A DNA stretch of 24,942 bases from the IMG/VR virus record IMGVR_UViG_3300043568_000370, positions 1-24,942 of that record. One strand, given 5' to 3'. The notes beneath the pieces were generated by a model that searched no databases, was not told the origin of the DNA, and worked only from the letters and a program-made list of their open reading frames with translations. This DNA comes from a virus. Positions 1 through 20,817 of this stretch are shown piece after piece (the stretch's first letter is position 1; every line of letters starts with the position of its first letter). A program made the translations under genes and the position numbers.

Positions 1-1640
1 TATATTTTTTTGATGTTTATAATAATAAACCATTAAAGGTTGAGTTATATAATTTCTTTAAATCTATGAACGATAAATGGATTGCAGGAAATTCTATAGG
101 TCAAAGGTCACTTTTAGAAGAGTTTTTATTTTTAGATAAGGCCAATAAAGACATAGGTAATGAATATTATATAGACATAGCACGATTACTTAATTTAGGA
201 GAACCCGAAAACATTAAACAAAATTTATTCAGTTCAATATCAATATTATTACAAGATACGGGTTTTGATTTAAGGGCATTACCAGCTTATATTAATTTCT
301 ATGGAACAAATTTTTCAAACACACCTAAATTAACACCATCCAAAAAAATAGCACAAAATATATTTGGAACATTCTTAGAAGTTGATTATCAAGAATCATC
401 ACCTAAAATTATTGTACAATATGTAGGTAAAAATTCGACAAGACCTGATATGTCAGATAATAAAAAATATAGATTTACTGACGATAGTTTTAATATTGGT
501 AATACCAATAACAATCCAGTTATGATTACTTTACCTAAAGTATTTCAAACAGGAGATTTATCTAAAACAAATAAAGTAGTTGCATTTGAAGTAAGTTTTG
601 GAGATCAAAATCAAAGTATTTTTAAAGGTATTAGTTTAGATCAGGCATCAATTAAAAATACTACAGAGTCATTTTATGTATTAGAAAACTTAGCTAGAAG
701 TGAATCAGGTTCATCATCACATAATGTTGATATTGGTTTATATGAGTATTATAGACAAGCGGCATACACATGTGAAATAACTTGTATGGGTAATGTTATG
801 ATACAACCTACGATGTTTTTCTATTTAAAAAATATCCCTATGTTTAAAGGAACATATTGGATAACTGAAGTTGGTCATGAAATTAGAAATAATAATATTG
901 TAACCAAATTTAAAGGATCAAGAATGCCATACACGGCATTACCAGATTTGACAGATTCATTTATGTCAAGTTATAGAACATTATTTGATAAACTACAACA
1001 AAAGGCAATCAATAGGGTTAATGGTTCAGATAAAGTTACGGAAACAAGTGCATCTATTGTCACTGCCGATGGTAGTCAATACACATATGATATGGGTCCT
1101 GATAAAAAGAAAGTACCGGGAGAAAAGGTTACTTTAGACGATGTGGGAGTAACCGTAAATGGAATACCATATAATGGATTTAATGAATTTAGATATATTG
1201 TTCAAGTTGAATATAAAGGAGATAAATGGTTAAGAGCACAGGTGGTTAGAATGGGAGAATCAAATTATTCAATGAACGATACAGATAGTATGTCTTTAAT
1301 AACTAAATCTAATTTTAAACAAGATCCAGCGTTTACTTGGGGTAATATTAGACAATTTAGTGATAAAAATTATTTCTATTCAACCAGATTTATTTTAGAT
1401 AAAATGGATGTTAATGAAACATTAACAGATTATAAAACACTTTTCCTAAATCCAAATAAAAATAAAAATATAACAGTAAATCATCAAGATAGTTCAGATA
1501 AAACTAAACCAATAGCTAGAGGTCCAATTGACAATATTAGGGATGAAAAAGAATATGGAATTGCTCTATCACCTAAATTGATGAAAGATTTAGATTTACA
1601 AGATGGTGATATTGTTTATTTTAAATTGGAGAAAGTGTAA
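1..1640 (+). CDS. Baseplate-hub-like structural protein (5' end outside window)
   Basis: The frame is open from the first bases of the window through the ATG at 66, with no stop, so the gene very probably begins upstream and 66 is an internal methionine. At least 545 residues are visible. Around positions 786-930 there is a segment of the type MGNVMIQPTMFFYL followed by NIPMFKGTYWI and EVGHEI. This resembles the C-terminal part of tail-hub and late-control-type proteins (T4 gp27, XkdQ, gpD), where a beta domain ends in a V-x-H turn. The C-terminal stretch (about 1555-1640) reads as a small beta-rich domain ending in DGDIVYFKLEKV. No catalytic motif is evident. Membership of the phage structural block is supported by its neighbours. 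The specific role as a hub protein is an inference of moderate confidence; another baseplate component is the alternative. Confidence 0.55.
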   Translation, partial: YFFDVYNNKPLKVELYNFFKSMNDKWIAGNSIGQRSLLEEFLFLDKANKDIGNEYYIDIARLLNLGEPENIKQNLFSSISILLQDTGFDLRALPAYINFYGTNFSNTPKLTPSKKIAQNIFGTFLEVDYQESSPKIIVQYVGKNSTRPDMSDNKKYRFTDDSFNIGNTNNNPVMITLPKVFQTGDLSKTNKVVAFEVSFGDQNQSIFKGISLDQASIKNTTESFYVLENLARSESGSSSHNVDIGLYEYYRQAAYTCEITCMGNVMIQPTMFFYLKNIPMFKGTYWITEVGHEIRNNNIVTKFKGSRMPYTALPDLTDSFMSSYRTLFDKLQQKAINRVNGSDKVTETSASIVTADGSQYTYDMGPDKKKVPGEKVTLDDVGVTVNGIPYNGFNEFRYIVQVEYKGDKWLRAQVVRMGESNYSMNDTDSMSLITKSNFKQDPAFTWGNIRQFSDKNYFYSTRFILDKMDVNETLTDYKTLFLNPNKNKNITVNHQDSSDKTKPIARGPIDNIRDEKEYGIALSPKLMKDLDLQDGDIVYFKLEKV

Positions 1641-1657
1641 TATTAATAAAACTTGGG

Positions 1658-1666
1658 ATATTTATA
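1658..1666 (+). promoter_or_regulatory. TATTTATA element, candidate late promoter
   Basis: ATATTTATA lies 17 nt before the ATG at 1684 and is followed by an A/T-rich tract. Closely similar elements precede the genes at 10546, 12885 and 22315. The sequence partly resembles the Bacteroidota -7 consensus TAnnTTTG. In such an AT-rich genome chance occurrence is a real possibility. Confidence 0.35.
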
Positions 1667-1683
1667 GTAATAAAACAAATATT

Positions 1684-1887
1684 ATGGAAAATAATAGATT
1701 AAATAATACCATGGATCAGTTTTTAAACCCTAAAAAGGTTAAAAACGTATCTAATGATGGTATGGAAAGAGAAGAATGTGATTTAGTAACAGGAGAATGT
1801 TATACAATCAGAGAAAAAGACGGTATCGTTGAAAGAATAAATAAAAGATATATTACCAATGACGGTAGACAATTATTACAAGATTAA
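1684..1887 (+). CDS. Small hypothetical protein (67 aa) with two cysteines
   Basis: The frame is open from 1603, but the upstream part overlaps the end of the previous gene. The ATG at 1684 follows a TATTTATA element and an A-rich leader, so it is the preferred start. The product is 67 residues, charged and hydrophilic, with C32 and C39 in ECDLVTGECY and a C-terminal part rich in charged residues. No signal peptide or membrane segment is seen. I do not recognise the family. The next gene starts 3 nt after its stop, which suggests co-expression with the structural genes that follow. It could be a minor virion protein or a chaperone; neither is shown by the sequence. Confidence 0.65.
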   Translation: MENNRLNNTMDQFLNPKKVKNVSNDGMEREECDLVTGECYTIREKDGIVERINKRYITNDGRQLLQD

Positions 1888-1890
1888 GCC

Positions 1891-2568
1891 ATGTTAGAGA
1901 AAAAATTATTAGAAGAAGTAAAACGTTTTAATGCTATCAACAAGTATAGTAAGAAAATGATCATGGAGCAAGACGCTCCACCACCAGCACCAGCAGAAGA
2001 TCCATTAGGTGATGTACCACCTCCACCAGCAGGTGATGTACCTCCTCCACCTCCAGCAGGTGACATGGGTGGTGATGTACCACCTCCACCAGCAGATGAT
2101 ATGGGAACCCCTCCAATGGATGAAGCAGGTATGGGTGGTGATACTGAAGAAATGGATATTACAGATTTAGTTAATATGACTAAGAATATCAAAAACGACC
2201 TTGAAAATAATAAACAAGACAATTCTGCGGTTATAAATAAAATGGACGACGTATTCACCAAATTGAATGACTTAGAAAGTAAATTGGCTCAAATGGATCA
2301 AGTTATGGCTAAGATTGACCAATTAGGAGCAACAGTTGAGGCTAACAAACCTAAAACTGAAATTGAAAAATTGGAAATGAGATCTTTAGATTCATACCCA
2401 TTCAATGAAAAACCACAAGAGTTCTTCGCACACAAACAAGGTGAAATGAGAGCTAGTGGTAAAAACGAATATGTATTAACTAAGGATGATGTTGAAAACT
2501 ACGCTCCTGACGCATTAAGATCATCATTTAACCCAAACGAAGAACAAAAAGATGAATATAGCTTCTAA
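1891..2568 (+). CDS. Proline-rich, coiled-coil structural protein
   Basis: The product is 225 residues in three parts. The N-terminus (1-27) is a basic amphipathic helix. Residues about 29-80 are a low-complexity region built from PPPP blocks separated by AGD or MGGD spacers. Residues about 88-165 form a predicted helical coiled coil with repeated hydrophobic positions (NDLESKLAQMDQVMAKIDQL). The acidic C-terminus ends in DEYSF. The layout suggests an elongated, multimeric virion or assembly protein, with the proline region as a flexible spacer. The start at 1891 lies 3 nt after the previous stop. The 3' end overlaps the next gene by 17 nt, so translation of the two is probably coupled. No known family is recognised. 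Confidence 0.7.
   Translation: MLEKKLLEEVKRFNAINKYSKKMIMEQDAPPPAPAEDPLGDVPPPPAGDVPPPPPAGDMGGDVPPPPADDMGTPPMDEAGMGGDTEEMDITDLVNMTKNIKNDLENNKQDNSAVINKMDDVFTKLNDLESKLAQMDQVMAKIDQLGATVEANKPKTEIEKLEMRSLDSYPFNEKPQEFFAHKQGEMRASGKNEYVLTKDDVENYAPDALRSSFNPNEEQKDEYSF
2008..2100 (+). repeat. Proline-coding short repeats
   Basis: GGTGATGTACC begins at 2008, 2032 and 2071, each followed by a CCT/CCA-rich tract encoding DVPPPP. The spacing is uneven (24 and 39 nt), so these are degenerate in-frame repeats, not a perfect tandem array. They make the proline-rich spacer of the surrounding gene. Confidence 0.7.
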
Positions 2569-2923
2569 AATAAAGTTCTTAATGGAACTTCAGGCTCAAG
2601 TTAAGATTAACCATTGGCAAACCAAAGGTTACGCAAGACATAAAGCCTTTGACAAGTTATATGAAGGATTAGTTGATTTGACAGACACGTTTGCTGAGGC
2701 CGCGATGGGTAAGTACGGTAGATTTAAATTAGAAAATGAAGATAAAACATTAAACGTTGTAAATTTATCTGAATTGGATTTAAAGAACATGTTACAAACA
2801 TCTAAAGAGGCGTTAATCCAATGGAGTAGTGAGTTTGATTCAACAGATACGGATTTATTGAATATCCGTGATGAGATTTTAGGACTATTAAATAAAATAA
2901 CATATCTATTAACATTAGAATAA
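2552..2923 (+). CDS. Compact Dps-like (ferritin-fold) protein, DUF5856-like
   Basis: The product is 123 residues and mostly helical. Residues 21-49 contain H21-W22, G26, H30, D34, D45 and E49. E. coli Dps has ferroxidase ligands H51, H63, D67, D78 and E82, with W52 beside H51. The H30/D34/D45/E49 spacing (+4, +11, +4) matches H63/D67/D78/E82 exactly, and HWQTKG matches HWNMRG. The loop between the two histidines is three residues shorter. A C-terminal helix, about residues 98-123, matches the position of the last Dps helix, so the four-helix core seems complete. The protein lacks the DNA-binding N-terminal tail of E. coli Dps. It also resembles phage DUF5856 proteins as I recall them. Predicted role: iron oxidation and storage or peroxide protection, or a structural protein that keeps the ferritin fold. 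The gene overlaps the preceding structural gene by 17 nt. Confidence 0.7.
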   Translation: MNIASKIKFLMELQAQVKINHWQTKGYARHKAFDKLYEGLVDLTDTFAEAAMGKYGRFKLENEDKTLNVVNLSELDLKNMLQTSKEALIQWSSEFDSTDTDLLNIRDEILGLLNKITYLLTLE

Positions 2924-2944
2924 AAATAAAAAAAAATATTTAAG

Positions 2945-3172
2945 ATGCAATCAGGATCAGCAGCAAGAACAGCTTCAAATACAGCAACAGGTTCATTAAC
3001 ATATATCGATGGTTTAATATCAGGAGCAACAGCTCAAGGACAATATCAAATTACTTTAGACCCAAGATACGTGAATGACGCAATAGTAACCACATTAAGA
3101 AATTATGGTTATAAAATTCAGACTAAGAACAATTTCATGGGTACCAATAACGATTATGTGATTAGTTGGTAA
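2945..3172 (+). CDS. Small hypothetical virion-block protein (75 aa)
   Basis: The product is 75 residues. The N-terminus is rich in Ser, Ala, Thr and Gly. A compact domain follows, with ISGATAQGQYQITLDPRYV, a short helix and GYKI, ending in DYVISW. The pattern (strand, helix, strand, hydrophobic C-terminus) suggests a small alpha/beta module that may be part of the particle. There are no cysteines, signal peptide or membrane segment. It is the last gene before the terminator at 3198-3226 and follows the Dps-like gene by about 20 nt. I do not recognise the family. The start is the only ATG near the 5' end; no Shine-Dalgarno is present. Confidence 0.65.
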   Translation: MQSGSAARTASNTATGSLTYIDGLISGATAQGQYQITLDPRYVNDAIVTTLRNYGYKIQTKNNFMGTNNDYVISW

Positions 3173-3197
3173 CAAAAAAATACTTTAAAAATAATTC

Positions 3198-3226
3198 AAC
3201 CCAGATTTTATAGTCTGGGTTTTTTT
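3198..3226 (+). terminator. Intrinsic terminator after the small structural genes
   Basis: An 8-bp perfect stem, AACCCAGA with TCTGGGTT, encloses an 8-nt loop. The 3' arm runs into a seven-T tract at 3220-3226. This is a textbook rho-independent terminator. It separates the structural block from the replication island. Confidence 0.9.
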
Positions 3227-3272
3227 ATGTATATTATAACATAAATGATTTTATAATTTAAATTTTAATTCT
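3227..3272 (+). promoter_or_regulatory. Leader and probable promoter region of the SSB gene
   Basis: These 46 nt between the terminator and the SSB start are almost entirely A/T and include TATAAT at 3252-3257. Because a strong terminator lies directly upstream, transcription of the replication island probably starts here. The TATTTAT element seen before the structural genes is absent. No Shine-Dalgarno sequence precedes the ATG. The exact start site cannot be read from sequence. Confidence 0.45.
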
Positions 3273-4115
3273 ATGAGTACATTTGATGCAGTACTTGCAC
3301 AGTACGAGAAAAACAAAAACGCCACAGGTGGCAACAACAACAAGATATCCTCAGAGGATAGATTAAAACGTTATTTCACAACCGTATTACAAAAAGGTTC
3401 TAAAGGTGAAGAAAGACGTATCCGTATTTTACCTACAAAAGATGGTTCTTCACCATTCGTAGAGGTAAAGTTCCACGAAGTTCAAGTGGACGGAAAATGG
3501 GTTAAATTATATGACCCAGCACAAGAAGGAAAACGTTCTCCATTAAATGAGGTTTACGAAGGATTGATGATGAGTGGTGTAGATTCTGACAAAGAATTAG
3601 CACGTAACTACCGTTCTCGTAAGTTTTATATCGTTAAAGTGATCGATCGTGATCATGAAGCTGATGGAGTTAAATTTTGGAGATTTAAACATAATCACAA
3701 AGGTGATGGTGTTATTGACAAAATCTTCCCAATCTTCCGTAATAAAGGAGATGTTACCAATCCTGAAAATGGTCGTGATTTGATCTTGTCTTTGGCTTTA
3801 ACAAAAGCGGGAACAGGTAAAGAATACACAGTTATCAATTCAGTATTAAACGACGATCCAAGTCCATTACATACTGACGCAGACGTTGCAAAAACGTGGT
3901 TAGATGATGAGTTAACTTGGTCAGATGTTTACTCTAAAAAAGGTGAAGATTATTTGGAAATGGTTGCGAGAGGTGAAGTTCCACGTTGGGATACCGCAAG
4001 TAGCAAATGGGTTTCTAATTTAACAACAGAAGAAACTATCGGAGCACCGAAGTCTTCAACTCCTGTTGTTGATCCACAAGATGACGCAGAAGTAGACGGT
4101 GACTTACCGTTCTAA
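3273..4115 (+). CDS. 32: gp32-like single-stranded DNA-binding protein
   Basis: The product is 280 residues, near the size of T4 gp32 (301). It should coat single-stranded DNA during replication and recombination. The basic N-terminal part (about 1-60) contains RLKRYF and GEERRIRILP. The core has WVKLYDP, RNYRSRKFYIVKVI and FWRFKHNHKG, characteristic of gp32-like OB folds. The C-terminus is acidic and ends DGDLPF. T4 gp32 binds zinc through cysteines; this protein has no cysteine at all, so a zinc site of that kind is absent. The DLPF end resembles the DDDIPF tip of bacterial SSB, which recruits host repair proteins, and is unlike the T4 gp32 end. Arginine is often coded by CGT here, more than in the tail genes, which may reflect high expression. 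The gene is first in the replication island. Confidence 0.85.
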   Translation: MSTFDAVLAQYEKNKNATGGNNNKISSEDRLKRYFTTVLQKGSKGEERRIRILPTKDGSSPFVEVKFHEVQVDGKWVKLYDPAQEGKRSPLNEVYEGLMMSGVDSDKELARNYRSRKFYIVKVIDRDHEADGVKFWRFKHNHKGDGVIDKIFPIFRNKGDVTNPENGRDLILSLALTKAGTGKEYTVINSVLNDDPSPLHTDADVAKTWLDDELTWSDVYSKKGEDYLEMVARGEVPRWDTASSKWVSNLTTEETIGAPKSSTPVVDPQDDAEVDGDLPF

Positions 4116-4126
4116 TTATTAACGGA

Positions 4127-4158
4127 GGGGTGGAGATAACGTCAGAAACCCCATTTTT
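4127..4158 (+). terminator. Possible weak terminator or attenuator between SSB and recombinase genes
   Basis: GGGGT at 4127-4131 can pair with ACCCC at 4148-4152, leaving a 16-nt loop, with five T residues at 4154-4158. The stem is short and the loop large. If active it would let SSB be made in excess of the downstream proteins. It may equally be chance. Confidence 0.3.
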
Positions 4159-4169
4159 AAAACAATATT

Positions 4170-5150
4170 ATGGCAGGTATAAAAAAGACTGATTTTTCAG
4201 CAATTAAAAAGAAGTTCTCGAAAGAGGCAGAATATAAACCAGATCGTTTCTTTGATTTGGGAGATGCTTTCTTAGACGCTTGTGGTATTCCAGGTCCTGC
4301 AATGGGACACATCAATATGTTGTTAGGACATAGTGATACGGGTAAAACAACAGCACTTGTAAAAGCTGCGGTTGATGCACAAAAGAAAGGAGTCGTTCCT
4401 GTGTTTGTTATTACCGAACAAAAATGGAGTTGGGATCATGCGGAGTTAATGGGGTTTAATAAAGATGGAGACTATCTTTTCAATAGTGATTTTGAATATA
4501 TCGAACAAATTACAGAATATATCAACGAACTATTAGACGCACAAGAGAAAGGAGATTTACCTCACGATTTATTAATCTTATGGGATTCGGTAGGTTCGGT
4601 TCCATGTAAGATGACTTACGATGGTAAAGGTGGTAAACAACACAACGCATCGGTATTAGCCGATAAAATTGGAATGGGTATCAACCAACGTATTTCAGGG
4701 TCAAGAAGAACAGATAAACCTTATACAAACACATTAATCATTGTTAACCAACCTTGGGTAGAATTACCTGATAATCCTTTCGGACAACCAAAGATTAAAG
4801 CAAAAGGTGGAGAAGCAATTTGGTTAAACTCAAGTATCGTATTCTTATTTGGTAATCAAAAAGGAGCGGGAACAACAAAAATCTCAATCACAAAAGATAA
4901 GAGAAAAGTAAAAATTGCAACAAGAACGAAAATCTCAATTATGAAAAACCACATCAATGGTTTAGGATATGAGGATGGACGTATCTTGGTTACATCACAC
5001 GGATTTATGCCAGGTAGAGAAGACACTGAAGAGAAGAAATCTATCGAGGAGTATAAAAAAGAAAGTGGTGATTACATCAGTAAGATGTTAGGTGTTAATG
5101 TTACAGACATCGCAGACGTAGAAGTTGTAACAGAAGAAAGTGATCTTTAA
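4170..5150 (+). CDS. uvsX: UvsX/RecA-like recombinase
   Basis: The product is 326 residues, shorter than E. coli RecA (352) or T4 UvsX (391). It should form filaments on single-stranded DNA and catalyse strand exchange using ATP. Residues 53-60 are a canonical Walker A motif, GHSDTGKT, with K59. E83 in VITEQ is a candidate for the catalytic glutamate (RecA E96). HDLLILWDSVGSVP at about 130-143 is Walker B. The DNA-binding loop region follows, with GINQRISGSRR and the NQPW strand at about 190-200, and then a lysine-rich region. The acidic C-terminus (EEKKSIEEYKK to EESDL) is typical of the family. T4 UvsX has a divergent P-loop, so this protein looks closer to cellular RecA at that site. It lies between SSB and the 5' nuclease, as expected for recombination-dependent replication. 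Confidence 0.88.
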   Translation: MAGIKKTDFSAIKKKFSKEAEYKPDRFFDLGDAFLDACGIPGPAMGHINMLLGHSDTGKTTALVKAAVDAQKKGVVPVFVITEQKWSWDHAELMGFNKDGDYLFNSDFEYIEQITEYINELLDAQEKGDLPHDLLILWDSVGSVPCKMTYDGKGGKQHNASVLADKIGMGINQRISGSRRTDKPYTNTLIIVNQPWVELPDNPFGQPKIKAKGGEAIWLNSSIVFLFGNQKGAGTTKISITKDKRKVKIATRTKISIMKNHINGLGYEDGRILVTSHGFMPGREDTEEKKSIEEYKKESGDYISKMLGVNVTDIADVEVVTEESDL

Positions 5151-8080: not shown

Positions 8081-10342
8081 ATGCAGAAAGGTAAAAAATT
8101 TCTGAGTGACTTAAAGTTACACTCAGACTATTTCAAATGGAAGGAAGATGAAAAAAGATATGAAACGTGGGAAGACGCGTGTGAGAACATAATTGACGGA
8201 CACAGAAAAAAATATGTGGATTATGCTGAGGCAATTGAACCATATTTACAATCTGCCGTTGAGAGTATGAAAGATCAAGCTGTATTAGCTTCACAAAGAA
8301 ACTTACAATACAGACACGAACAAATTATGAAACATAACACGAGAATGTTTAACTGTACATCAGGACACATTGCACGTAATAGAGTATTCCAAGAGATTTT
8401 TTACTTGGCATTATCTGGTTGTGGATTCGGTGGAGGATTATTAACTCCTTTTGTAAATAATTTAAGTAGAATTCAAAAAAGAACTTTAGGGACTAAAACT
8501 TTTTATATTGAAGATTCAATTGAAGGTTGGGCAAACGCATTGGGTGTATTGTTATCATCTTACTTTGTTGACGAACAACCATTCCCTGAATATGCAGGTT
8601 ATGAAGTTAAATTAGATTATTCTTTAATTCGTGAGAAAGGTTCATTCATCAGCGGTGGTTTTAAAGCACCTGGTCCTGATGGTTTAAAACAATCTTTAGA
8701 AAAAATAGAATCGTTAATTGAAAAGTGGTTAACTAATGAAGGAGAAAAAATTCGTCCTATCTTAGCGTTTGATATTATTTGTCACTCAGCGGATGCAGTA
8801 TTGTCGGGTGGTGTTAGACGTTCAGCGTTGAATATGATCGTTGATCCTAATGATGATGAGATGATCCACGCTAAGACAGGTAATTGGAGAATAGAAAACC
8901 CACAAAGAGGTCGTAGTAATAACTCAGTTATTTTATTGAGAAGTGAAGTTGTTAAAGAACAATTCAATTACTTGGTACAATTAAATGACGGAGCAAATGA
9001 TATTGGTTTTGTTTTTGCGAACAGTTGGTTTGATATGTTTAATCCATGTTTTGAGATTATGAAAATCCCTGTATTAGATACAATTGATTTTGGTAAAATC
9101 AAATATGATGAAGTTGAACAATATGTTAAAGACAACAAATCTAAGTTCGGTATTCAAGGTTGTAATTTAACCGAGATCAATGCTGAGAAGGCAACAACAA
9201 AAGAAAAGTTTTTAAAGGCATGTAAAGATGCTTCTTTCTTAGGAACATTACAAGCGGGTTATACTAATTTTCCTTATTTAGGTGAAACAAGTAAAGCAAT
9301 CTTTGAAAGAGAAGCTTTGTTAGGTGTTAGTATTACAGGTTGGATGAATAATCCTAAATTATTTAATGCTGAATTATTAGAAGAAGGAGCACAAGCCGTA
9401 AAAGATGCTAATAAAGAATTGGCAGCGGTAATTGGAATTAACCAAGCGGCAAGAACTACTTGTGTAAAACCTTCAGGTAATGCGTCAGTTGTATTAGGAA
9501 CTGCATCAGGTATTCACCCTGAACACTCTGAAAAGTATTTCCGTATCATGCAGTTAAATAAAGAAAGTAACACTGCAAAATGGTTAGAAGAAAATATGGC
9601 TTTCTTATTAGAAGAAAGTGTATGGTCTTCAACTAAATCAGATTATGTTGTATTCGTTCCTGTTGAAAATCCAAAAGTTGGTTTATTCAAAAAAGATATG
9701 AAAGGTATTAAACACCTTGAGTTAATTAAGTTGGTTCAACAACATTGGGTAAATGCTGGAACTAATCCTGAGTTATGTGCTTATATGCCGGTAAATCATA
9801 ATACATCTTGTACAGTTATTATTGACGATAAAGATGCAATTGTTGATTATATTTGGGAACAAAGAGATTTATTTACTGCGGTTAGTTTCATGTCAGACTA
9901 CGGAGATAAAGATTTCAATCAAGCGCCATTTACGTCAGTATTAAATCTTGACGAATTAGTTGAGGTATATGGTAAAGGTTCGGTATTAGCATCTGGTTTG
10001 ATTATTGATGGTTTACATTATTTTAATCAAAACTTATGGTTAGCAACAGATACTTTATTAGACGATTCAATACAAATTACAGGAACAAGAGAACAAGTCT
10101 TATTAAAGAAATATTGGATCTCAAGAGCGAAGAAATTTGCGAAGAATTACTTTAAAGGTGATTTGAAGAAGATGGTTTATTGTTTAAAAGACGTTCATTT
10201 ATTCTATAAGTGGGAGACTATTACTCGTCAATTCAAAGAAGTAAACTTCGGTGAAATTTTAGATAAACCACAATACAAGAGTATTTCCGATTATGCGGCA
10301 CAATCTTGTAGTGGAGCACAATGTGATGTGACAAGTATCTAA
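8081..10342 (+). CDS. nrdJ: Class II (adenosylcobalamin-dependent) ribonucleotide reductase, monomeric type
   Basis: The product is 753 residues, close to the 739-residue Lactobacillus leichmannii ribonucleoside-triphosphate reductase, in which C408 carries the thiyl radical, C119 and C419 are the redox pair, and C731 and C736 reload the active site. Here NPCFEI (N321, C323, E325) is the N-x-C-x-E active-site motif. C361 in GCNLTEIN is the likely partner and C92 in NCTSGHI the other redox candidate. C743 and C748 form the C-terminal C-x4-C pair. SGCGFGGG lies in the N-terminal region. It converts ribonucleotides to deoxynucleotides using B12 and no oxygen. The distance between C323 and C361 is 38 residues, longer than the 11 in L. 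leichmannii, which implies an inserted loop. The stop codon overlaps the start of the next gene (TAATG). Confidence 0.92.
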   Translation: MQKGKKFLSDLKLHSDYFKWKEDEKRYETWEDACENIIDGHRKKYVDYAEAIEPYLQSAVESMKDQAVLASQRNLQYRHEQIMKHNTRMFNCTSGHIARNRVFQEIFYLALSGCGFGGGLLTPFVNNLSRIQKRTLGTKTFYIEDSIEGWANALGVLLSSYFVDEQPFPEYAGYEVKLDYSLIREKGSFISGGFKAPGPDGLKQSLEKIESLIEKWLTNEGEKIRPILAFDIICHSADAVLSGGVRRSALNMIVDPNDDEMIHAKTGNWRIENPQRGRSNNSVILLRSEVVKEQFNYLVQLNDGANDIGFVFANSWFDMFNPCFEIMKIPVLDTIDFGKIKYDEVEQYVKDNKSKFGIQGCNLTEINAEKATTKEKFLKACKDASFLGTLQAGYTNFPYLGETSKAIFEREALLGVSITGWMNNPKLFNAELLEEGAQAVKDANKELAAVIGINQAARTTCVKPSGNASVVLGTASGIHPEHSEKYFRIMQLNKESNTAKWLEENMAFLLEESVWSSTKSDYVVFVPVENPKVGLFKKDMKGIKHLELIKLVQQHWVNAGTNPELCAYMPVNHNTSCTVIIDDKDAIVDYIWEQRDLFTAVSFMSDYGDKDFNQAPFTSVLNLDELVEVYGKGSVLASGLIIDGLHYFNQNLWLATDTLLDDSIQITGTREQVLLKKYWISRAKKFAKNYFKGDLKKMVYCLKDVHLFYKWETITRQFKEVNFGEILDKPQYKSISDYAAQSCSGAQCDVTSI

Positions 10343-12884: not shown

Positions 12885-15800
12885 ATGATACAAAAGCATA
12901 GAATTTCAACCAATATTGGGGTTGACCAAAAAATCACAGTTGAGTTAAAACAAGATTTTGACGTTTTAGAGATTTTATCTTTAAAATTTAGTCAAAAAGA
13001 GATTTACACTTCGATGTGCTCTGATTACGGAGTTGTCTGTGGTAGAGTTACTGCAAACAATGGTTTTGGACTCGGTAATGTAAGAGTATCAATATTTGTA
13101 CCATTAACAATAGAAGATGAAGAGGATCCTGTAATTTCTACTCTTTACCCATATAAGGAAGTTACTGACAGAGACGAAAATAATTATCGTTATAACTTAT
13201 TACCATCAAGACAACAACATAGTGGACATGCAAAAACGGGGACGTTTCCCGATCAAACTAATATTTTAGAGAGAGAAGAAGTTTTAGAGGTATATGAGAA
13301 ATATTACAAATACACAGTTAAAACAAATAGTGCGGGTGATTTTATGATTTGGGGTGTACCTATTGGTGCACAAACAATACATATGGATGCTGACTTATCT
13401 GATGTCGGTTGTTTCTCTTTAAGACCGTATGATTTTATTAGACAAGGAATAAATGTCGATGGATTTAAAAACAAATTCTCATTTAAAGAATCTGAAGATT
13501 TAGACTCTTTACCACAAATTGTTAGTATAAATAAAATCATCCAAGTTTATCCTTTTTGGGGAAATGAATCTTTATGTGAGATTGGTATTACAAGAACAGA
13601 TTTTGACTTAACAGAAAACGGAGTTAATATTCAACCTAAAGCATATGTAATTGGTGGTATTTTTACTGACAGTAGTAAAAATGCAATTAATAAAGCTTGT
13701 ACCCCAAGAAGAAAAATGGGAAGAAAATGTGATTTAGTTGCTAAGTCAGGTAAGATTGAAGCTATTAGATTCACACCTCAAAAAGATGATAACAATTACC
13801 CACGTTTAGAAGTTGTTAATATAAATGAGGATATACCCGATGACGGTGGATTTGTATTACCGGTTGTTATGAACATGGATTATGTAATTACAAATGAATT
13901 TGGTGAGAATGAAATAACTAATGATATTAATAGAGGTATTCCAACATCAGGATGTTATAGATTTAGAATTAACATGAATGATAATGATTTAACGAGAGTT
14001 AGATTTAATGCTGATTATTTGTTACCAAACATAAGAGAGTATCAATTAACCGAAACGTTAGGTGGATTTTCTTATGATGTTCCAAATGATAAATCATATG
14101 CGTTTTCAACAAGTCTAAGTGATTATCCATCTGAGGCTTTACCATTAATTTTAAATAATGATGGAGGTGAGTATTATCCACAAGATTATTTTTATAGATT
14201 TACATATAATAAAGTCTATACAGTATCGTCATTTCAACAGAGATATAACGGCACAAATTTAATTGGACAAGTCGGTTTCGCTAATATAAATGACACAATT
14301 CCAAGTGAAGAAGAAGATTGTGGAGATAAACTAACACCACCATCAAATTTTGGTATAAAGAATTATACATTTCCATTATTAATTGCCGATTTTTTATTAG
14401 TATTGGATTTTGTTATTAAATTTTTAACATTACAATTTTTAAATTTTACAGTTTTTATTTTAGGATTTATAGTCGAAGCGTTAATTTCTGTTGCGGCAAA
14501 AAGGAATAGACCTCTAAGATCAAGACTTACAGAATTTGTTATTAATAATCAAACAAAATTAAGTTTAATTAATTATCCTGAATGCGTCGAATGTTCAGAT
14601 GAAAGTTCCACTATTGGAGGTGGAAATGGTTCTGGCATATCTTATAGTGGAAATAGTAGTTGTGGTTATTATGATACATTATATGATGATAATTTGGTGA
14701 CAGGGTATTTTGTTACGAATACTAGTAATACGAGTGAATTTAAAGGTTGCGGTTATAATGCTACACTTTTACCAGAAAATATAGGAAGAAAATATGTTCA
14801 AACTAATGCACAATTAAAAACAGAATTAAGTGCAGGTAATATATTAATCTCCACCGCAATTTATGGGGGAGCAATAAATGTGCCAGAATCATATTATCCA
14901 TATAATTCAGGTAATCCATTCGTAACAGGTGTTCAAGATTTTGCTTGTGAAAGTTATAATTATAATGGAGGATACGCAACCCCAAGTGCAAGAAGTGAAT
15001 TCGCAAACGGAGTTTTTTATATTGTTCCAGGTACTCAAACTCCAGCAAGATTAACAGGTATATTGAGAGAATACTATAGAAGAAAACGAGTGGGTAAAAT
15101 GTTTTGTGGTGGTGTCGTTAATTATGGTTTTATTGATAATTGGTTATCTGGATCACTATATTTTTTACAATTTAAAGCTAAAGGAGTTACTAGAGCTATA
15201 AGTAGTAATAATGAAAAATTAATAAGATATTGTAGGACATTGGTAAGATTCGTAGGTAACGGAATTAATAAATTTTATTATAGGTCAGCTAAATTTAAAA
15301 ATGGTAATTTTATACCTAATGAATTAAATCACCCTACGACATTTGTAGATTTAGGACCAAGAGATGAATTTATTAAAGAAATATGTATTGATAAAAGATT
15401 AGATCCAAATTGTTCTGTATCAAGAAGTATTGGACCTACCTCATATCAAGACATTGGAGATTTACTTGGATTAGCAATTAATTATAGAATGGATGTCGGA
15501 GGAGCTCTCGGAAATTTAGATATGTTTTTTACCAACAAAGGATTTCAAAATAAAATAGGTCTAAGACAAATTTTAGATGGAGATATTCTACAATTATTAT
15601 CTATTAATAATGAAGCCGGTATAGAAGGATTTGATTTAGAAAATTCAAAATATCTTGCATATCAATTCAATAAGTTAGATCCTGAGATTTATCCTGAAGT
15701 TTTTAAAACCGTAAACTCTCAATATGGACCATTACCGGTTACTTTCGATCTAAAAGAAGATGGTGAAAGAATTAGAGCGTGTTTAAATGAACCAGGAAGA

Positions 15801-16502
15801 TTGGGTTGGGATTCTGATACTTATGGATCTTCACAAAAAGTACCGTTTTATTTGTGGGATAAGGGAGGTGAAGGATTTGGCCCATATAATGAATATAAAG
15901 ATAGTCAATCTTGGGATTATGGTTCCGTTGAATTACAACCTTTACAAGGAATGACATATGCTTATAATATTAATGGAGCACCAAATGATTCGTCAGACAA
16001 ATATTTGTTATTACCAATGACTTATACTTTTAGTGGTTTAACAATAAATGGAGATGGTACAGATCAAATTGATTTTGATATTGTTGATCTTGATGAAAAT
16101 CCTTTTGATAGTAGTGAGGACTATGGTTTAGAATATCCTGGTTTTACTTATTTACACGTAACAGGATTTACAAATCAATTATTATCTGGTGGGTCGGGAC
16201 AATATACTAAGGCACCAACAGGAGGAACATTATATACAAGAGTTGGTCCAGTATCGGGTAACTCAACATACCAAGGTATTACAATAACAAATGGTTGGCA
16301 CTCACAATTTTGGAGTAGTTCAATTGATTATATCATAAGACCAACAATTGATTATTACAGTGGAAATAGACAAATCCTTTCGACACCATTTCATTTTTAT
16401 TTTGGACTAATGGCGGGTAAAACGGGAATGGATAAGTTTGTAGATTTATTTGGTCCTAAAGGGGCATTTAATTTACTTGAATGTGAAAACCAAGTTCCTT
16501 AA
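12885..16502 (+). CDS. Large baseplate/tail structural protein with internal hydrophobic segment
   Basis: The product is 1205 residues. Near residues 45-75, SDYGVVCGRVTANNGFGLGNVRVSIFVP, and near 145-170, TNSAGDFMIWGVPIGAQTI, together match a carboxypeptidase-regulatory-like beta-sandwich, apparently split by an inserted loop. The next several hundred residues are beta-rich. Residues about 493-538 form a long hydrophobic stretch (LLIADFLLVLDFVIKFLTL, then FTVFILGFIVEALISVAAK) that could be two helices; this is unusual for a soluble baseplate protein. A Gly/Ser-rich linker follows near 570-590. The rest is beta-rich. The position after gp6 suggests a baseplate or tail-tip role. It could be an arm that meets the host surface, or a protein that inserts into the membrane during infection; the sequence does not decide. 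I do not recognise a full-length family. Confidence 0.7.
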   Translation: MIQKHRISTNIGVDQKITVELKQDFDVLEILSLKFSQKEIYTSMCSDYGVVCGRVTANNGFGLGNVRVSIFVPLTIEDEEDPVISTLYPYKEVTDRDENNYRYNLLPSRQQHSGHAKTGTFPDQTNILEREEVLEVYEKYYKYTVKTNSAGDFMIWGVPIGAQTIHMDADLSDVGCFSLRPYDFIRQGINVDGFKNKFSFKESEDLDSLPQIVSINKIIQVYPFWGNESLCEIGITRTDFDLTENGVNIQPKAYVIGGIFTDSSKNAINKACTPRRKMGRKCDLVAKSGKIEAIRFTPQKDDNNYPRLEVVNINEDIPDDGGFVLPVVMNMDYVITNEFGENEITNDINRGIPTSGCYRFRINMNDNDLTRVRFNADYLLPNIREYQLTETLGGFSYDVPNDKSYAFSTSLSDYPSEALPLILNNDGGEYYPQDYFYRFTYNKVYTVSSFQQRYNGTNLIGQVGFANINDTIPSEEEDCGDKLTPPSNFGIKNYTFPLLIADFLLVLDFVIKFLTLQFLNFTVFILGFIVEALISVAAKRNRPLRSRLTEFVINNQTKLSLINYPECVECSDESSTIGGGNGSGISYSGNSSCGYYDTLYDDNLVTGYFVTNTSNTSEFKGCGYNATLLPENIGRKYVQTNAQLKTELSAGNILISTAIYGGAINVPESYYPYNSGNPFVTGVQDFACESYNYNGGYATPSARSEFANGVFYIVPGTQTPARLTGILREYYRRKRVGKMFCGGVVNYGFIDNWLSGSLYFLQFKAKGVTRAISSNNEKLIRYCRTLVRFVGNGINKFYYRSAKFKNGNFIPNELNHPTTFVDLGPRDEFIKEICIDKRLDPNCSVSRSIGPTSYQDIGDLLGLAINYRMDVGGALGNLDMFFTNKGFQNKIGLRQILDGDILQLLSINNEAGIEGFDLENSKYLAYQFNKLDPEIYPEVFKTVNSQYGPLPVTFDLKEDGERIRACLNEPGRLGWDSDTYGSSQKVPFYLWDKGGEGFGPYNEYKDSQSWDYGSVELQPLQGMTYAYNINGAPNDSSDKYLLLPMTYTFSGLTINGDGTDQIDFDIVDLDENPFDSSEDYGLEYPGFTYLHVTGFTNQLLSGGSGQYTKAPTGGTLYTRVGPVSGNSTYQGITITNGWHSQFWSSSIDYIIRPTIDYYSGNRQILSTPFHFYFGLMAGKTGMDKFVDLFGPKGAFNLLECENQVP

Positions 16503-16515
16503 TAAAAACTAAAAA

Positions 16516-18684
16516 ATGAAAAAGAAACAAATTTTATTACCGAGTAAAAGATATTTTAAGGCAGATGAACAGGATCTTAATCTTAATGTTAAATTAGATA
16601 ATGATGAGACATTGATGAGAGAAGGTGATAGAAATATAATGTTAAATCTAACCGAATTATTTGATGATGAAAGAAACCAAAGTTTTAATTATAAAATATA
16701 TGGTAAATTAAAAATGGTTTTTAGAAACATGTATAATGGTTTTACTGATTATATTCCACTATTAAGAAACCTTTATTTATGTGGTGACGGAACGGGAAAT
16801 GATTTAGGATTTGTACCATATAATGAATTTGCATTTTTAAGAAATGATGTTTTACGAGAAAGGACAACCCCTTCATATGGATCTACATTAGGAACAACAA
16901 ATGTAATACCAAAAATTGATTTATTTGACGGAACACCATTTGGAAGATACACCGGTCATACCATCACAACATCAATCGACGCTCCTTATAAAAATTGGAA
17001 TTTATATTTAAGTTATGTGAACGGACAAGATAGTGGATTCACTATGAACTATACTTTATCAGATGAAACTAATTTTAACTTTGTTGCTGGTAACGGAATA
17101 CCATTTAGAGTAGACAGTACAACAGATCCAAATTATTATATATTAACATCACCAGTTGAACACGGAATATCACAAGGGGAATATATTATTCTATCGGGAG
17201 GTACATATACTTCTCATAATTGGGTTTCAGGAGTTACCTATAGTAAAGATAATATTATACATTATTCTGATAAAATATATACATCAAAAATAAATAGTAA
17301 TGTAAATAACATACCACCACTAACAGGAAATACAAATTGGAAATTAGTTACTAATTGGAATTCAACTGAAACTTATGATGTTAATAATTTAGTTTTTTAT
17401 TCGGGAGCAACTTATAAATCTTTAGTAAATTCTAATTTAAATAATATACCACCGATTACGGGATCAACAAGTTTCTGGCAACAAACATCTAATAGACAAT
17501 ATTATACAATACCAATTACTTCCGACACCGAAAAATATAGAATTTACTATATCGATAGTGTTGGTAATCAAACTTATAATTCAGAAAATTATGTAATCAA
17601 CATATTAAAAAATGAATTTTCGTCGGGAACAATATTAAGCTCAGTTGTGTTAGGTAAAAGATGTTTAGATATTAAAAATATTTCAGGAACAACGTCACAA
17701 TATTATGTTCATAAACATAAAACATTAACAGGAGATCAACAATATATTATGGATAAAGTTGGTTTTGAATCATCAATTTTTGAAGACGAAAGAAAAATAT
17801 TATTCGAAAATCCATTACAAGAAAATGATATATTAGTAGAAAGAAATCGACAAGAATCTGTATTATTTGATTTTAAAGAAACATTCTCATTAACCGGAAT
17901 AACCAATAATTTGGGTTACACACCAACAGAAGTTTATGTAAGTATAATTTTTAAAAACGGTAACGGATTATTTGATTACCCACCAAAAGTAGGATTTAAA
18001 TTTAATTTTCATGATAATTGGTTGGATAATCAATTTAGTGGAACAACATCGGTTGAAAAGGTAATGACAGGATTAACACAAACGTTCAGTGGTAAAACAA
18101 ATACAATATTAGGTAGTACCTACAATTATACGGGTGTAACATTTACTGGCGGAACAACTATACCGGTAGGAACCACAGGTCTTACAGGTGCCTTCGTTGA
18201 ATACAATAGAAAAGAATTAAAAGAAAGAATTATTAGTGAGGCGTTTCATAAATTTTCACACAAAACAATTTTTTCTGGAACAACAGTAGGTGGAAGTAAT
18301 AGATTATTTTATCACTCACAAGATCAAGATAGTTTTTATCAAGGAGCAACACCATCAAATACAGTCGGGTATTATTACCAACCACACTACAGAGTTAAAT
18401 TAAGAGAACTATCTCCATATATCGAAAGTTCAAAAACAAACGATTTAATCAATTTACCCGAAAATGCAATTTACGATAATGATGATAAATTATGGAAATG
18501 GAGAGATTTATATGATCATGGATTTGTGGATCAAGATGGTAATGGAACAAGATTTCCATATATGAATAATACACACTATGTTGTAAATGATATTAATTTT
18601 TATTTAAGAAATGAAAAATCATATAAAAATAAAAATGATCTATTTGGTGGATTTAATAATTATAAAAATAAAACTAACTGTTAA
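16516..18684 (+). CDS. Baseplate/tail protein with two carbohydrate-binding-like modules
   Basis: The product is 722 residues. The N-terminal 120 residues are hydrophilic and include GDGTGNDLGFVPYNEFAFLRND; I do not recognise them. Residues about 236-279 and 281-323 are tandem copies of a module with W at the start, then TY, an acidic or Asn turn, FYSG or HYSDKIY, N-x-NNIPP-x-TG and a closing W. This is the pattern of small CBM5/12-type (ChiC-like) carbohydrate-binding domains. The C-terminal part is rich in TG-x-T motifs and beta strands. Binding host surface sugars is the natural prediction. The stop overlaps the start of the next gene (TAATG). It belongs to a run of large beta-rich proteins that probably make the distal baseplate or short fibres. 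Confidence 0.65.
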   Translation: MKKKQILLPSKRYFKADEQDLNLNVKLDNDETLMREGDRNIMLNLTELFDDERNQSFNYKIYGKLKMVFRNMYNGFTDYIPLLRNLYLCGDGTGNDLGFVPYNEFAFLRNDVLRERTTPSYGSTLGTTNVIPKIDLFDGTPFGRYTGHTITTSIDAPYKNWNLYLSYVNGQDSGFTMNYTLSDETNFNFVAGNGIPFRVDSTTDPNYYILTSPVEHGISQGEYIILSGGTYTSHNWVSGVTYSKDNIIHYSDKIYTSKINSNVNNIPPLTGNTNWKLVTNWNSTETYDVNNLVFYSGATYKSLVNSNLNNIPPITGSTSFWQQTSNRQYYTIPITSDTEKYRIYYIDSVGNQTYNSENYVINILKNEFSSGTILSSVVLGKRCLDIKNISGTTSQYYVHKHKTLTGDQQYIMDKVGFESSIFEDERKILFENPLQENDILVERNRQESVLFDFKETFSLTGITNNLGYTPTEVYVSIIFKNGNGLFDYPPKVGFKFNFHDNWLDNQFSGTTSVEKVMTGLTQTFSGKTNTILGSTYNYTGVTFTGGTTIPVGTTGLTGAFVEYNRKELKERIISEAFHKFSHKTIFSGTTVGGSNRLFYHSQDQDSFYQGATPSNTVGYYYQPHYRVKLRELSPYIESSKTNDLINLPENAIYDNDDKLWKWRDLYDHGFVDQDGNGTRFPYMNNTHYVVNDINFYLRNEKSYKNKNDLFGGFNNYKNKTNC
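17221..17484 (+). repeat. Tandem CBM5/12-like protein modules
   Basis: Two modules of about 43-45 residues each begin with Trp (codons at 17221 and 17356) and share the Tyr, SG and NNIPP positions. A third copy, encoded at about 21010-21135, lies in the protein two genes downstream. The similarity is at protein level; the DNA copies are diverged. Confidence 0.7.
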
Positions 18685-20816
18685 TGGAAATTTTAAAAAA
18701 TAGTAACAATTTAAATATTGTAGTTAATAGTGAACAAAGTTTTAGAACCGATTTGGGTTGGCAGGATAATCTTGCCGATTTTGAAGATGAAGTTTTAAAA
18801 GATATTATTAATCCATCTAAAAATTATGAAACAGTTAGATACATTCATAAACCATATATTGTAACGGGAAACACTTACCCACCTAATTTTACACAAACTG
18901 ACATATGGTTTCAATTTTATTTTGCAACAAGTGGAGACACACCAAATTATGTTTTAGATTATAATCCTGTTGGTATATCAACACAAGAAAATCAATTGAT
19001 GACAAAACAATCAACTGAAAGTTTCTTTAGATTAGAGTTTTATAAAACACCCGGTAGTATAACAAATTATGTTTTAACATGTGAGCCACCGACAAGACAA
19101 AATAGAAGATTAATAAATTCTAAAAATTTAGCATTACCCTTAGGTGAAAAATATTTTCATACAGGTAGTAACTATGGGTATAATATATTTGTACCTGTTT
19201 TTACAGGTTCAAATTATCGAAACAAAGAAAATATGTATTTGTTTTGGTTTGATAATGAGAGTGTTTTAACAGATACTAATTTAAGTGGAACTACAACATT
19301 AGATATGTATAGTTTTACCGCAACAACGGAACAAACTATTTTATTTACAAATGAAAATAACGATATAACACAAGTAAACATACCAATAACTACAGGTACT
19401 ACAGGTACCACATTAATTGGTTGGACGGGACAAACATTTCAATATCCAAATTTAACATATGAAATTATAAAAAACCCAAATGATAATAAATCACCATTTT
19501 ATCACGGAATGAATACGTTTTTCATGACAGCAAAATTTTTCAATGCGGATAGAGGTGAGATATTAGATTTTATAAATTCAGGTCAAACAACAAGTTATAA
19601 TATAACGGAAGAAAAAGATATGTATTATCAAATTGATTTTGATCACTATGAAAGAACATATCAAATATATAGATATACGGGGACAACAAAATTAGATAGA
19701 ATAGGTACAGGTTATACAACGACTGATAGTATAACATTCTACGAAAAAGGAGGAGGAGTATTATTACCGGTATCAACCCCAACTCCGACACCTATTGGTG
19801 GAGTTACGGCGACACCTAGACCAACGTCAACACCTTTCCCAACTTCAACACCTACACCAGTGGCTACGGTAATTCCTACAATAACCCCAACACCTACAGA
19901 AAGTCCTTGTGTAACGTCAGTAAGTTTTGAAGTTGATTTTGGTGGAACTGTTAGATATTTTAATTGTGAGGGTAGTGAAGTTACGGAGACATTTGGTATT
20001 GGACCACAAGTAATTAATGATTGTATTCAAAATAATTCATTATCAGGAGTAATCGCGTCAATTTCATCTGTGTTTTATGGTGAAACGTCATGTCTTCCAT
20101 CAACCGCAACACCAACACCAACATCAACTCCTTTACCACCAACGGCGACACCAACTCCTTTACCACCAACTGCAACACCAACTCCTTTACCACCAACTCC
20201 AACACCATTCCAAACTACATTTAGTGGTTATGTGAGTTTAGTTAATGGTCCATCAGCTTGTAGTGGTGGTGAATATGAGGCGGTGACTGTTACAGTTCAA
20301 GGTACTTCATTATGTAACCTAACTAAAGTATTAGGTTTATCTTCTTCAATATATGGTAACGTATATGGTGATATGACTAATAACACTACATTTTGGGTTT
20401 CTGATGGTACTGATGAAAGAGAATTTATGAGAGATGGTTCGGCACAAACAGGAACAGCTCAAACAGCATGTACCTCTTGTTCAGGTGTGCCAACTGCAAC
20501 TCCAACCGCAACGCCAACAGCAACTCCTGGCGGTTCAACACCAACGCCTACTCCAACAGCAACTACAATACCTTTAACAACATATACAGGTTGTGGTAGA
20601 GGAAATACATTTAGTGGAGTTTGTAATGACGCATCAAATAATAGAACATTCTATTCTGATTGTGGACCATTTGATTTTACAACAGGATGCTTTGTATATG
20701 TTGATACATTCCCTAATGCTTTGATAGGATACGAATATGTTCAAATTAATGGAGAAACGTGGGATATTAATAATAGTACAGGACAAATAACAGGATTATC
20801 ATCAGAACAGTGCTAA
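18684..20816 (+). CDS. Modular adhesin-like tail protein with Thr/Pro linkers and cysteine-rich modules
   Basis: The product is 710 residues. The N-terminal 360 residues are beta-rich, begin with LNIVVNSEQSFRTDLGWQDN, and probably attach to the baseplate. Three Thr/Pro-rich linkers follow, at about 362-408, 472-508 and 602-633, each a series of TPTP or TATPTP units. They separate three C-terminal modules of roughly 60-95 residues that contain several cysteines (near the ends of modules one and two, distributed in the third, which ends in SSEQC). Such linkers occur in secreted modular enzymes and adhesins and act as stiff spacers. The modules are candidates for receptor-binding domains. The family is not recognised. 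The ATG overlaps the preceding stop, and the next gene begins 1 nt after its stop. The second linker is encoded by a 27-bp tandem repeat that could change length by slippage. Confidence 0.68.
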   Translation: MEILKNSNNLNIVVNSEQSFRTDLGWQDNLADFEDEVLKDIINPSKNYETVRYIHKPYIVTGNTYPPNFTQTDIWFQFYFATSGDTPNYVLDYNPVGISTQENQLMTKQSTESFFRLEFYKTPGSITNYVLTCEPPTRQNRRLINSKNLALPLGEKYFHTGSNYGYNIFVPVFTGSNYRNKENMYLFWFDNESVLTDTNLSGTTTLDMYSFTATTEQTILFTNENNDITQVNIPITTGTTGTTLIGWTGQTFQYPNLTYEIIKNPNDNKSPFYHGMNTFFMTAKFFNADRGEILDFINSGQTTSYNITEEKDMYYQIDFDHYERTYQIYRYTGTTKLDRIGTGYTTTDSITFYEKGGGVLLPVSTPTPTPIGGVTATPRPTSTPFPTSTPTPVATVIPTITPTPTESPCVTSVSFEVDFGGTVRYFNCEGSEVTETFGIGPQVINDCIQNNSLSGVIASISSVFYGETSCLPSTATPTPTSTPLPPTATPTPLPPTATPTPLPPTPTPFQTTFSGYVSLVNGPSACSGGEYEAVTVTVQGTSLCNLTKVLGLSSSIYGNVYGDMTNNTTFWVSDGTDEREFMRDGSAQTGTAQTACTSCSGVPTATPTATPTATPGGSTPTPTPTATTIPLTTYTGCGRGNTFSGVCNDASNNRTFYSDCGPFDFTTGCFVYVDTFPNALIGYEYVQINGETWDINNSTGQITGLSSEQC
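20125..20205 (+). repeat. 27-bp tandem repeat encoding a Thr/Pro linker
   Basis: CAACTCCTTTACCACCAAC begins at 20125, 20152 and 20179, a period of exactly 27 bp (nine codons). The copies differ by a few third-position and junction bases. The repeats keep the frame and encode TPLPPTATP-type units. Copy-number change would alter linker length without a frameshift. Confidence 0.88.
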
Positions 20817-20817
20817 A

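Follow-up and report, generated by a model that had tools for sequence, protein, structure and literature searches.

The 24,942-nucleotide stretch of viral DNA analysed here (the window) encodes, at positions 2552 to 2923, a 123-residue protein that in all probability has a ferritin-like fold with homology to Dps. The source virus is a large tailed phage, and the protein belongs to the Pfam family DUF5856, whose member in T4 is rI.-1 (MobD.6). It is probable (roughly 60%) that the protein is a shortened, tail-less mini-ferritin of the Dps type, used mainly by viruses, that would oxidise and store iron in the infected cell. The interest of the finding lies in the link to T4 rI.-1 and in the breadth of DUF5856, as 1264 of 50,697 phage records contain a relative of rI.-1 (tblastn, E ≤0.01), mostly enterobacterial phages by name, and these proteins have no settled function. 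Were these relatives mini-ferritins, control of iron and peroxide would be a common phage strategy, testable in T4 on E. coli K-12, and wider than the picture of Dps-like enzymes in phages given in the accessible parts of Benler et al. (2021; PMC8008677).

Predicted fold and candidate metal ligands of the encoded protein

The gene and the codons discussed below are the following:

2552..2923, plus strand: CDS of the Dps-like DUF5856 protein, 123 aa (ORF list; PF19174, E 9.8e-22; phrog_858, E 1e-20; AlphaFold2 four-helix bundle)
2612..2617, plus strand: codons of H21-W22 (E. coli Dps H51-W52); H21 invariant, W22 replaced by Leu in most relatives
2639..2641, plus strand: codon of H30 (Dps H63); invariant in 260/260
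2651..2653, plus strand: codon of D34 (Dps D67); Asp in 35/260
2684..2686, plus strand: codon of D45 (Dps D78); invariant in 260/260
2696..2698, plus strand: codon of E49 (Dps E82); invariant in 260/260
2870..2875, plus strand: codons of D107-E108, acidic residues conserved in the last helix and a possible pore lining (alignment, VIA)

The iron site of E. coli Dps is formed by H51, H63 and D67 of one subunit together with D78 and E82 of its neighbour. All five Dps-type ligand residues (H, H, D plus D, E) are present in the window protein, and the spacing H30-D34-D45-E49, which an earlier note on this DNA had equated with H63-D67-D78-E82, was verified in both sequences, the residues of E. coli K-12 Dps (H51, W52, H63, D67, D78 and E82) being read from the MG1655 genome. 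The two ligand sets align with a gap of three residues between the histidines, both in the alignment and by hhalign; the His-His distance is 9 in the window protein and 12 in Dps, so the shorter loop described in that note is real. Its statement that the DNA-binding tail is missing also holds: the alignment of the model to E. coli Dps starts only at residue 31 of the latter, a basic N-terminal tail is absent and the computed pI is 5.2.

The structure was predicted with AlphaFold2 from alignment A4, which holds 75 of 76 representatives at 88% identity, five of them with a later start codon. The result is a confident four-helix bundle (mean pLDDT 93.5, pTM 0.87), the fold on which the Dps reading of the note depended, with helices at residues 3-23, 27-55, 62-65, 77-94 and 100-121. 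On the short BC-loop helix of Dps subunits the two models give a divided picture: a four-residue helix stands at 62-65 in the window model, and in the T4 model no helix of four or more residues was seen there.

Foldseek against the PDB gave no match under E 0.001 (best E 0.039), and its ranks 1-45 were all Dps-type chains at a probability of 0.98-1.00, counting two rows of a Dps-bacterioferritin chimera and three of TpF1, which we take to be a Dps. VIA comparison, in which helical bundles may reach a Z of up to about 13 through a shared general arrangement alone, scored the window model at Z 12.9 against MsDps2 (rmsd 2.9, 123 aligned) and 11.5 against E. coli Dps (rmsd 2.9, 121 aligned), with non-Dps scores of 12.2 for YciE, 11.8 for mini-bacterioferritin and 11.7 for bacterioferritin. 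Since VIA scores Dps, bacterioferritin and YciE alike, the fold itself says ferritin-like, and it is the profile match of the sequence that points to Dps. The A4 profile (75 relatives) matched NapA among PDB sequences at E 3e-5, and 18 of its best 20 rows bear the name Dps or neutrophil-activating protein, including one Dps-bacterioferritin chimera; the remaining two are 'CAIP' and 'putative bacterioferritin'. Counting against Dps, hhalign aligned E. coli Dps taken alone with 37% probability over 44 columns, and the Ferritin and DUF5856 profile results given below weigh on the same side. The assignment to a Dps-like ferritin fold is thus upheld by the model, the Foldseek ranking, the significant profile match and the four invariant ligand positions described below.

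T4 rI.-1, modelled from a 100% identical copy (L088), shows the same four main helices (AlphaFold2, pLDDT 89.0), and in the VIA comparison it scores highest against MsDps2 (Z 13.8, rmsd 2.2, 116 aligned). Its Foldseek list is mixed, with non-Dps rows that include the copper/silver-binding CopM and a pectin methylesterase inhibitor. The window protein matches the family over its full length and shares with rI.-1 32% identity (tblastn), the predicted fold and four ligands, but the first histidine is followed by Trp in the window protein and by Phe in rI.-1.

A search of viral structures in BFVD gave 12 matches with E ≤0.001, among them Pithovirus LCPAC404 (A0A481ZC29; E 5.5e-6), Fadolivirus (A0A7D3V608; 6.3e-5) and a phage 'DpsA' (2.5e-4); M1HGL9 is listed in this search without a name. 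The proteins of Pithovirus LCPAC404 and Fadolivirus, which are viruses of eukaryotes (the former from a metagenome), match in predicted structure over the whole length at 30% and 35% identity (TM 0.86 by query). The accessible part of a giant-virus survey mentions giant-virus ferritin in general terms and does not name DUF5856 (PMC7136201).

Conservation of the ligands was followed in 260 relatives, one per locus, with the window included and both its copy (L001) and E. coli Dps (L087) excluded. H21, H30, D45 and E49, the counterparts of H51, H63, D78 and E82, are identical in all 260, and they are invariant in 23 of 23 clusters formed at 70% identity, among which pairs fall to 16% identity. 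These counts are to be read knowing that many relatives were gathered with peptide patterns containing H21, H30 or D45 plus E49, and that some of the 260 are mutually identical. As a pattern-free control, the four ligands are kept in 15/15 annotated phage records (L082-L086, L252-L261), which lie among the tblastn hits and within the 260, T4 having been taken by accession. Nine columns of A4 are invariant (H21, T24, H30, D45, E49, G53, D107, Y118 and L120). The chance that four named positions fall among nine invariant columns of 123 drawn at random is P = 1.4e-5, a rough figure because residues differ in mutability and some were in the search patterns. A chance motif was ruled out by the four ligands invariant in 260 relatives together with the Dps-type chains that stand first in the profile search.

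The fifth ligand fares differently. At the position of D34 the relatives carry Asp in 35 cases, Gly in 141, Asn in 69 and other residues in 15, and Asp is retained in 8 of the 23 clusters, so that conservation of all five ligands had to be given up for four of five. The pairing of H21-W22 with Dps H51-W52 holds in part as well: both residues are present and H21 is invariant, but the position of W22 is Trp in only 83 of the 260 (Leu in 164, Phe in 13). When an acid that might replace D34 was sought in the 23 clusters, column 42 alone was mostly acidic (19/23) besides D45, E49, D107 and E108, and to our knowledge it corresponds to no Dps ligand. The D67 position of E. coli Dps serves the weaker, second metal. 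With D34 lost from the majority of relatives, most of DUF5856 probably retains the main metal position and has a weakened second one, judging from the aligned residues.

Acids are also conserved in the last helix, where the 23 clusters have Asp (22) or Glu (1) at D107 and an acidic residue at E108 in 22. In the VIA alignments, model residue 123 pairs with MsDps2 residue 157 and with E. coli Dps residue 165. On the assumption of an ungapped helix D, Y118 falls on W160 of E. coli Dps, and in MsDps2 N104 falls on D138 and D107 on H141, two positions described as gated-pore residues in the titles of mutant entries. Read from these end-points, the D107-E108 region may possibly line a pore.

Family membership, distribution and names

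The window protein matches DUF5856 (PF19174) at E 9.8e-22 over residues 21-120, and its 78.3 bits lie well over the curated cut-off of 34.6 bits. Pfam Ferritin (PF00210), the other profile proposed in the note, was not matched at E ≤1 by this protein, and the contig gave no match to it either. Among the 75 members of A4, all match DUF5856 at E ≤1 and three reach PF00210 at that threshold (best E 0.0031). With E. coli Dps as the query, DUF5856 was absent from the matches at E up to 10, and one of 14 control genomes, that of Bacillus subtilis, contained a weak PF19174 match under the cut-off.

Besides T4, relatives occur in Ackermannviridae, in Caulobacter phage GB2A, in Microcystis phage Mel-JY01 and in small Manatee Spring phages. 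Two pattern scans of viral contigs matched at least 599 stretches each, with at least 587 and at least 590 relatives among them. The T4 protein as a query in viral contigs found four near copies, and the Microcystis phage protein seven stretches, none of them a relative. A scan of bacterial and archaeal genomes (84,980 species) for two conserved patterns, which detects only members carrying them, gave 44 stretches, nine of which were relatives. H, H, D and E are kept in 9/9 of these cellular relatives (by eye), one of which has a longer loop, and around five of them (L278, L280, L281, L282 and L283) several neighbours match genes of the viral loci. The many relatives in viral contigs, set against nine in cellular genomes, suggest from sequence data that DUF5856 is mainly a viral family.

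The names given to these proteins are inconsistent. The window protein matches phrog_858, 'starvation-inducible transcriptional regulator', at E 1e-20 and more weakly phrog_3636, 'DNA binding protein' (E 1.1e-5), and RefSeq gives T4 rI.-1 the same regulator name. Other phage records read hypothetical protein, starvation-inducible transcriptional regulator, transcriptional regulator (GB2A), zinc finger protein (T2) or rI lysis inhibition regulator (one Salmonella phage). The assignment is therefore only partly new: phage Dps is in print, and the label 'starvation-inducible transcriptional regulator' that databases give DUF5856 already points towards Dps. A literature search, with most subscription journals outside it, found no paper naming DUF5856 or PF19174, or rI.-1 together with ferritin. 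No paper on a phage miniferritin or bacteriophage ferroxidase of this kind was found by title or by the start of the abstract.

Such names, together with the fifth ligand missing from most relatives and the CopM row among the fold matches of the T4 model, could be taken to mean that the site holds another metal (Zn, Mn or Cu), or that the protein mainly binds or condenses nucleic acid, and that iron is not oxidised. This reading is quite improbable, considering that the four invariant positions coincide with the iron site of Dps, that the basic tail is missing and the computed pI is 5.2, and that the regulator name, as far as seen, rests on annotation transfer, no experiment having been found behind it.

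Proposed function and published precedents

As a Dps-type mini-ferritin, the protein would pair its subunits as Dps does, probably into a small cage, with H21 and H30 of one subunit meeting D45 and E49 of the other. In Dps itself the ligands come together at the two-fold interface, and the cage has 12 subunits. Fe(II) bound at this interface would be oxidised with peroxide or oxygen and stored as a ferric mineral. Produced in the infected cell, it would reduce free iron and, with it, the Fenton chemistry that harms iron-sensitive proteins and the phage DNA under replication. Coating of DNA is not expected, since the tail is missing, and neither is a structural part in the virion.

Besides T4 rI.-1, a close known system is Dps/NapA, with which the window protein shares the four-helix bundle, remote sequence similarity, the H-H-D-E positions and also the fifth ligand Asp. 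It differs from E. coli Dps in length (123 against 167 aa), in the absent DNA-binding tail and in the His-His loop shorter by three, and from Dps/NapA in falling below the Pfam Ferritin cut-off and in belonging to a family that has mostly lost the fifth ligand.

Ferritin-like proteins borne by phages and proposed to act against oxidative stress have been described before. Gut phages ('Gratiaviridae') carry Dps and Mn-catalase according to the available portion of Benler et al. (2021; PMC8008677), which states that Dps-like enzymes had earlier been observed only in seven Lactobacillus phages, and Kyrkou et al. (2019; PMC6669764) report a ferritin-like protein of Lactobacillus phages. The proteins of both articles are described as Dps or as Lactococcus Dps-like, and neither DUF5856 nor rI.-1 is named in the accessible parts. 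Infection of Yersinia ruckeri by phage YerA41 strongly induces the host's dps and catalase, in the part of that study available (PMC7354516). This induction, taken with the phage-borne Dps and Mn-catalase, indicates that iron and peroxide control matters in some infections.

Against an iron role, the reported phenotype of T4 rI.-1 is confined to lysis inhibition. A comparison of T4 lines lists, in its accessible part, a frameshift of rI.-1 at Glu61 (PMC8573959), which is by position the E82-type ligand (T4 gene at L082:1320-1706). The frameshift suggests that the gene is dispensable in the laboratory; intact copies are common.

Gene neighbourhoods in the window and its relatives

The genes and signals around the Dps-like gene are the following:

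1891..2568, plus strand: overlapping upstream gene, 225 aa, proline-rich then helical (ORF list; next upstream in 77/81 loci of the window's group)
2945..3172, plus strand: 75-aa gene between the Dps-like gene and the terminator (ORF list, PHROG search, neighbour count)
3198..3221, plus strand: terminator-like hairpin followed by a T run (5 terminator-like sites in 1400-4500, 1.4 expected)
3273..4115, plus strand: gp32-like protein binding single-stranded DNA, at the start of the replication block (PF08804, E 2.6e-14)

The note had placed the gene among virion genes, overlapping a structural gene and preceding a terminator, and each of these statements survives in part. The overlap with ORF 1891-2568 amounts to 17 bases, but that ORF has only weak coiled-coil-type matches. 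A hairpin does follow at 3198-3221; a position of ORF 2552-2923 directly before it was ruled out by the intervening 75-aa gene. Upstream lie the 225-aa protein, a 94-aa ORF and a 524-aa ORF; by its layout, the last corresponds to the final part of a protein of 1936 aa encoded in G001, a 211-kb record. Still further upstream, on the same strand, G001 encodes a baseplate wedge protein (E 4e-6) as well as tail tube and tail sheath proteins. The hairpin is followed by gp32-like, UvsX-like, 5'-3' exonuclease, DnaB-like helicase and ribonucleotide reductase genes and then by baseplate wedge genes. With tail genes upstream and replication genes downstream, the Dps-like gene stands at the end of the tail block, before the replication block. 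Either gp32 or the 75-aa gene is next downstream in 80/81 loci of the window's group. Matches to TATAAATA, taken here to be the T4 late promoter pattern, numbered 4 against 7.4 expected and thus gave no signal.

Expression with the virion, or a repurposed structural part, had been suggested from this position and finds little support; as an explanation it is highly improbable. The same-strand tail sheath, tail tube and baseplate genes upstream in the window's phage speak for it, as do a portal-type gene next upstream in 69/80 loci of a third group and two BFVD entries labelled 'prohead protease' whose fold is weakly similar. Elsewhere the gene keeps other company: it lies by tk and rI in T4 and most of its fetched kin and among tRNA genes in Aeh1, and relatives at large adjoin antiholin, endolysin, peptidase, portal, tRNA or unnamed genes. 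In RaK2 the relative is filed under lysis and host interaction and is not named among the virion proteins in the available part of the report (PMC3622015). Neighbours as varied as antiholin, endolysin, portal and tRNA genes do not favour a virion role. The two 'prohead protease' proteins (A0A6J7XDU5 and A0A6J7WIS1, uncultured phage; E 0.14 and 0.30) are possibly Dps-like domains fused to a head protein.

Lysis genes recur among the neighbours. A gene named rI or lysis inhibition stands directly upstream in six of eight fetched T4-type records (not in Nando or Aeh1), whereas the window has no adjacent antiholin gene and its Dps-like gene follows the tail block and precedes gp32. The gene overlaps an endolysin gene in GB2A (L258:2444-3261), and a peptidase M15 gene is next upstream in one Manatee Spring phage. 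Within the group of that phage (L083, L092-L171), 41/81 loci have one of the four endolysin types tested 16 to 1456 bases away. The bacterial contig L279 has an endolysin-like ORF 1.3 kb downstream of its Dps-like gene.

These neighbours, and the slight extension of T4 lysis inhibition by over-expressed rI.-1 (Golec et al., 2010, according to section 5.2.4 of PMC6832632), raise the alternative that a protein of Dps fold shifts the timing of lysis, either as a sensor of iron or redox state or by binding a holin or antiholin, with iron storage secondary or lost. It is unlikely. The same four endolysin queries found nothing in 81 loci of the window's group, in 81 of the portal group or in five T4 copies; RaK2 has a relative, but its authors report no homologue of rI, rIII, rI.1 or t in the part of the article accessible (PMC3622015); and the invariant metal ligands exceed the needs of a binding partner. 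Across the groups there is no constant partner that points to a structural role, and lysis genes recur, though not everywhere.

Iron oxidation and storage in the infected cell by a Dps-type mini-ferritin remains the preferred reading. A wider proposal, offered tentatively and with considerable doubt, would make DUF5856 a virus-specialised mini-ferritin lineage of T4-like phages, Ackermannviridae, podovirus-like and other tailed phages and, by predicted structure, giant viruses of eukaryotes. The lineage would have a reduced, mainly one-metal ferroxidase site and recur beside lysis genes, and T4 rI.-1 would couple the iron or redox state of the cell to infection and lysis timing.

The nearest relative of the window's UvsX is that of Flavobacterium phage immuto (42.5%; only four records reach E ≤1e-10), a phage with the same order of gp32, recombinase, exonuclease and helicase. 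Similarity and gene order together prompt the guess, from sequence comparison, that the host of the window's phage belongs to the Bacteroidota. No gene named Dps occurs in the 27 kb of the 160-kb immuto genome that was viewed. Where the window has a ribonucleotide reductase at 8081-10342, matching phrog_367 and, weakly, the insertion domain of a B12-dependent class II enzyme, immuto carries an NrdF-type beta subunit.

Four large proteins (1205, 722, 710 and 490 aa) are encoded after the baseplate wedge genes at 12885-22290 of the window; their Pfam and PHROG matches are absent or weak, one being a weak match to CBM_5_12. The tail sheath of G001 (L272:1467-4451) is 994 aa long, and its PHROG sheath match covers residues 691-992 only, which indicates a large extra N-terminal part.
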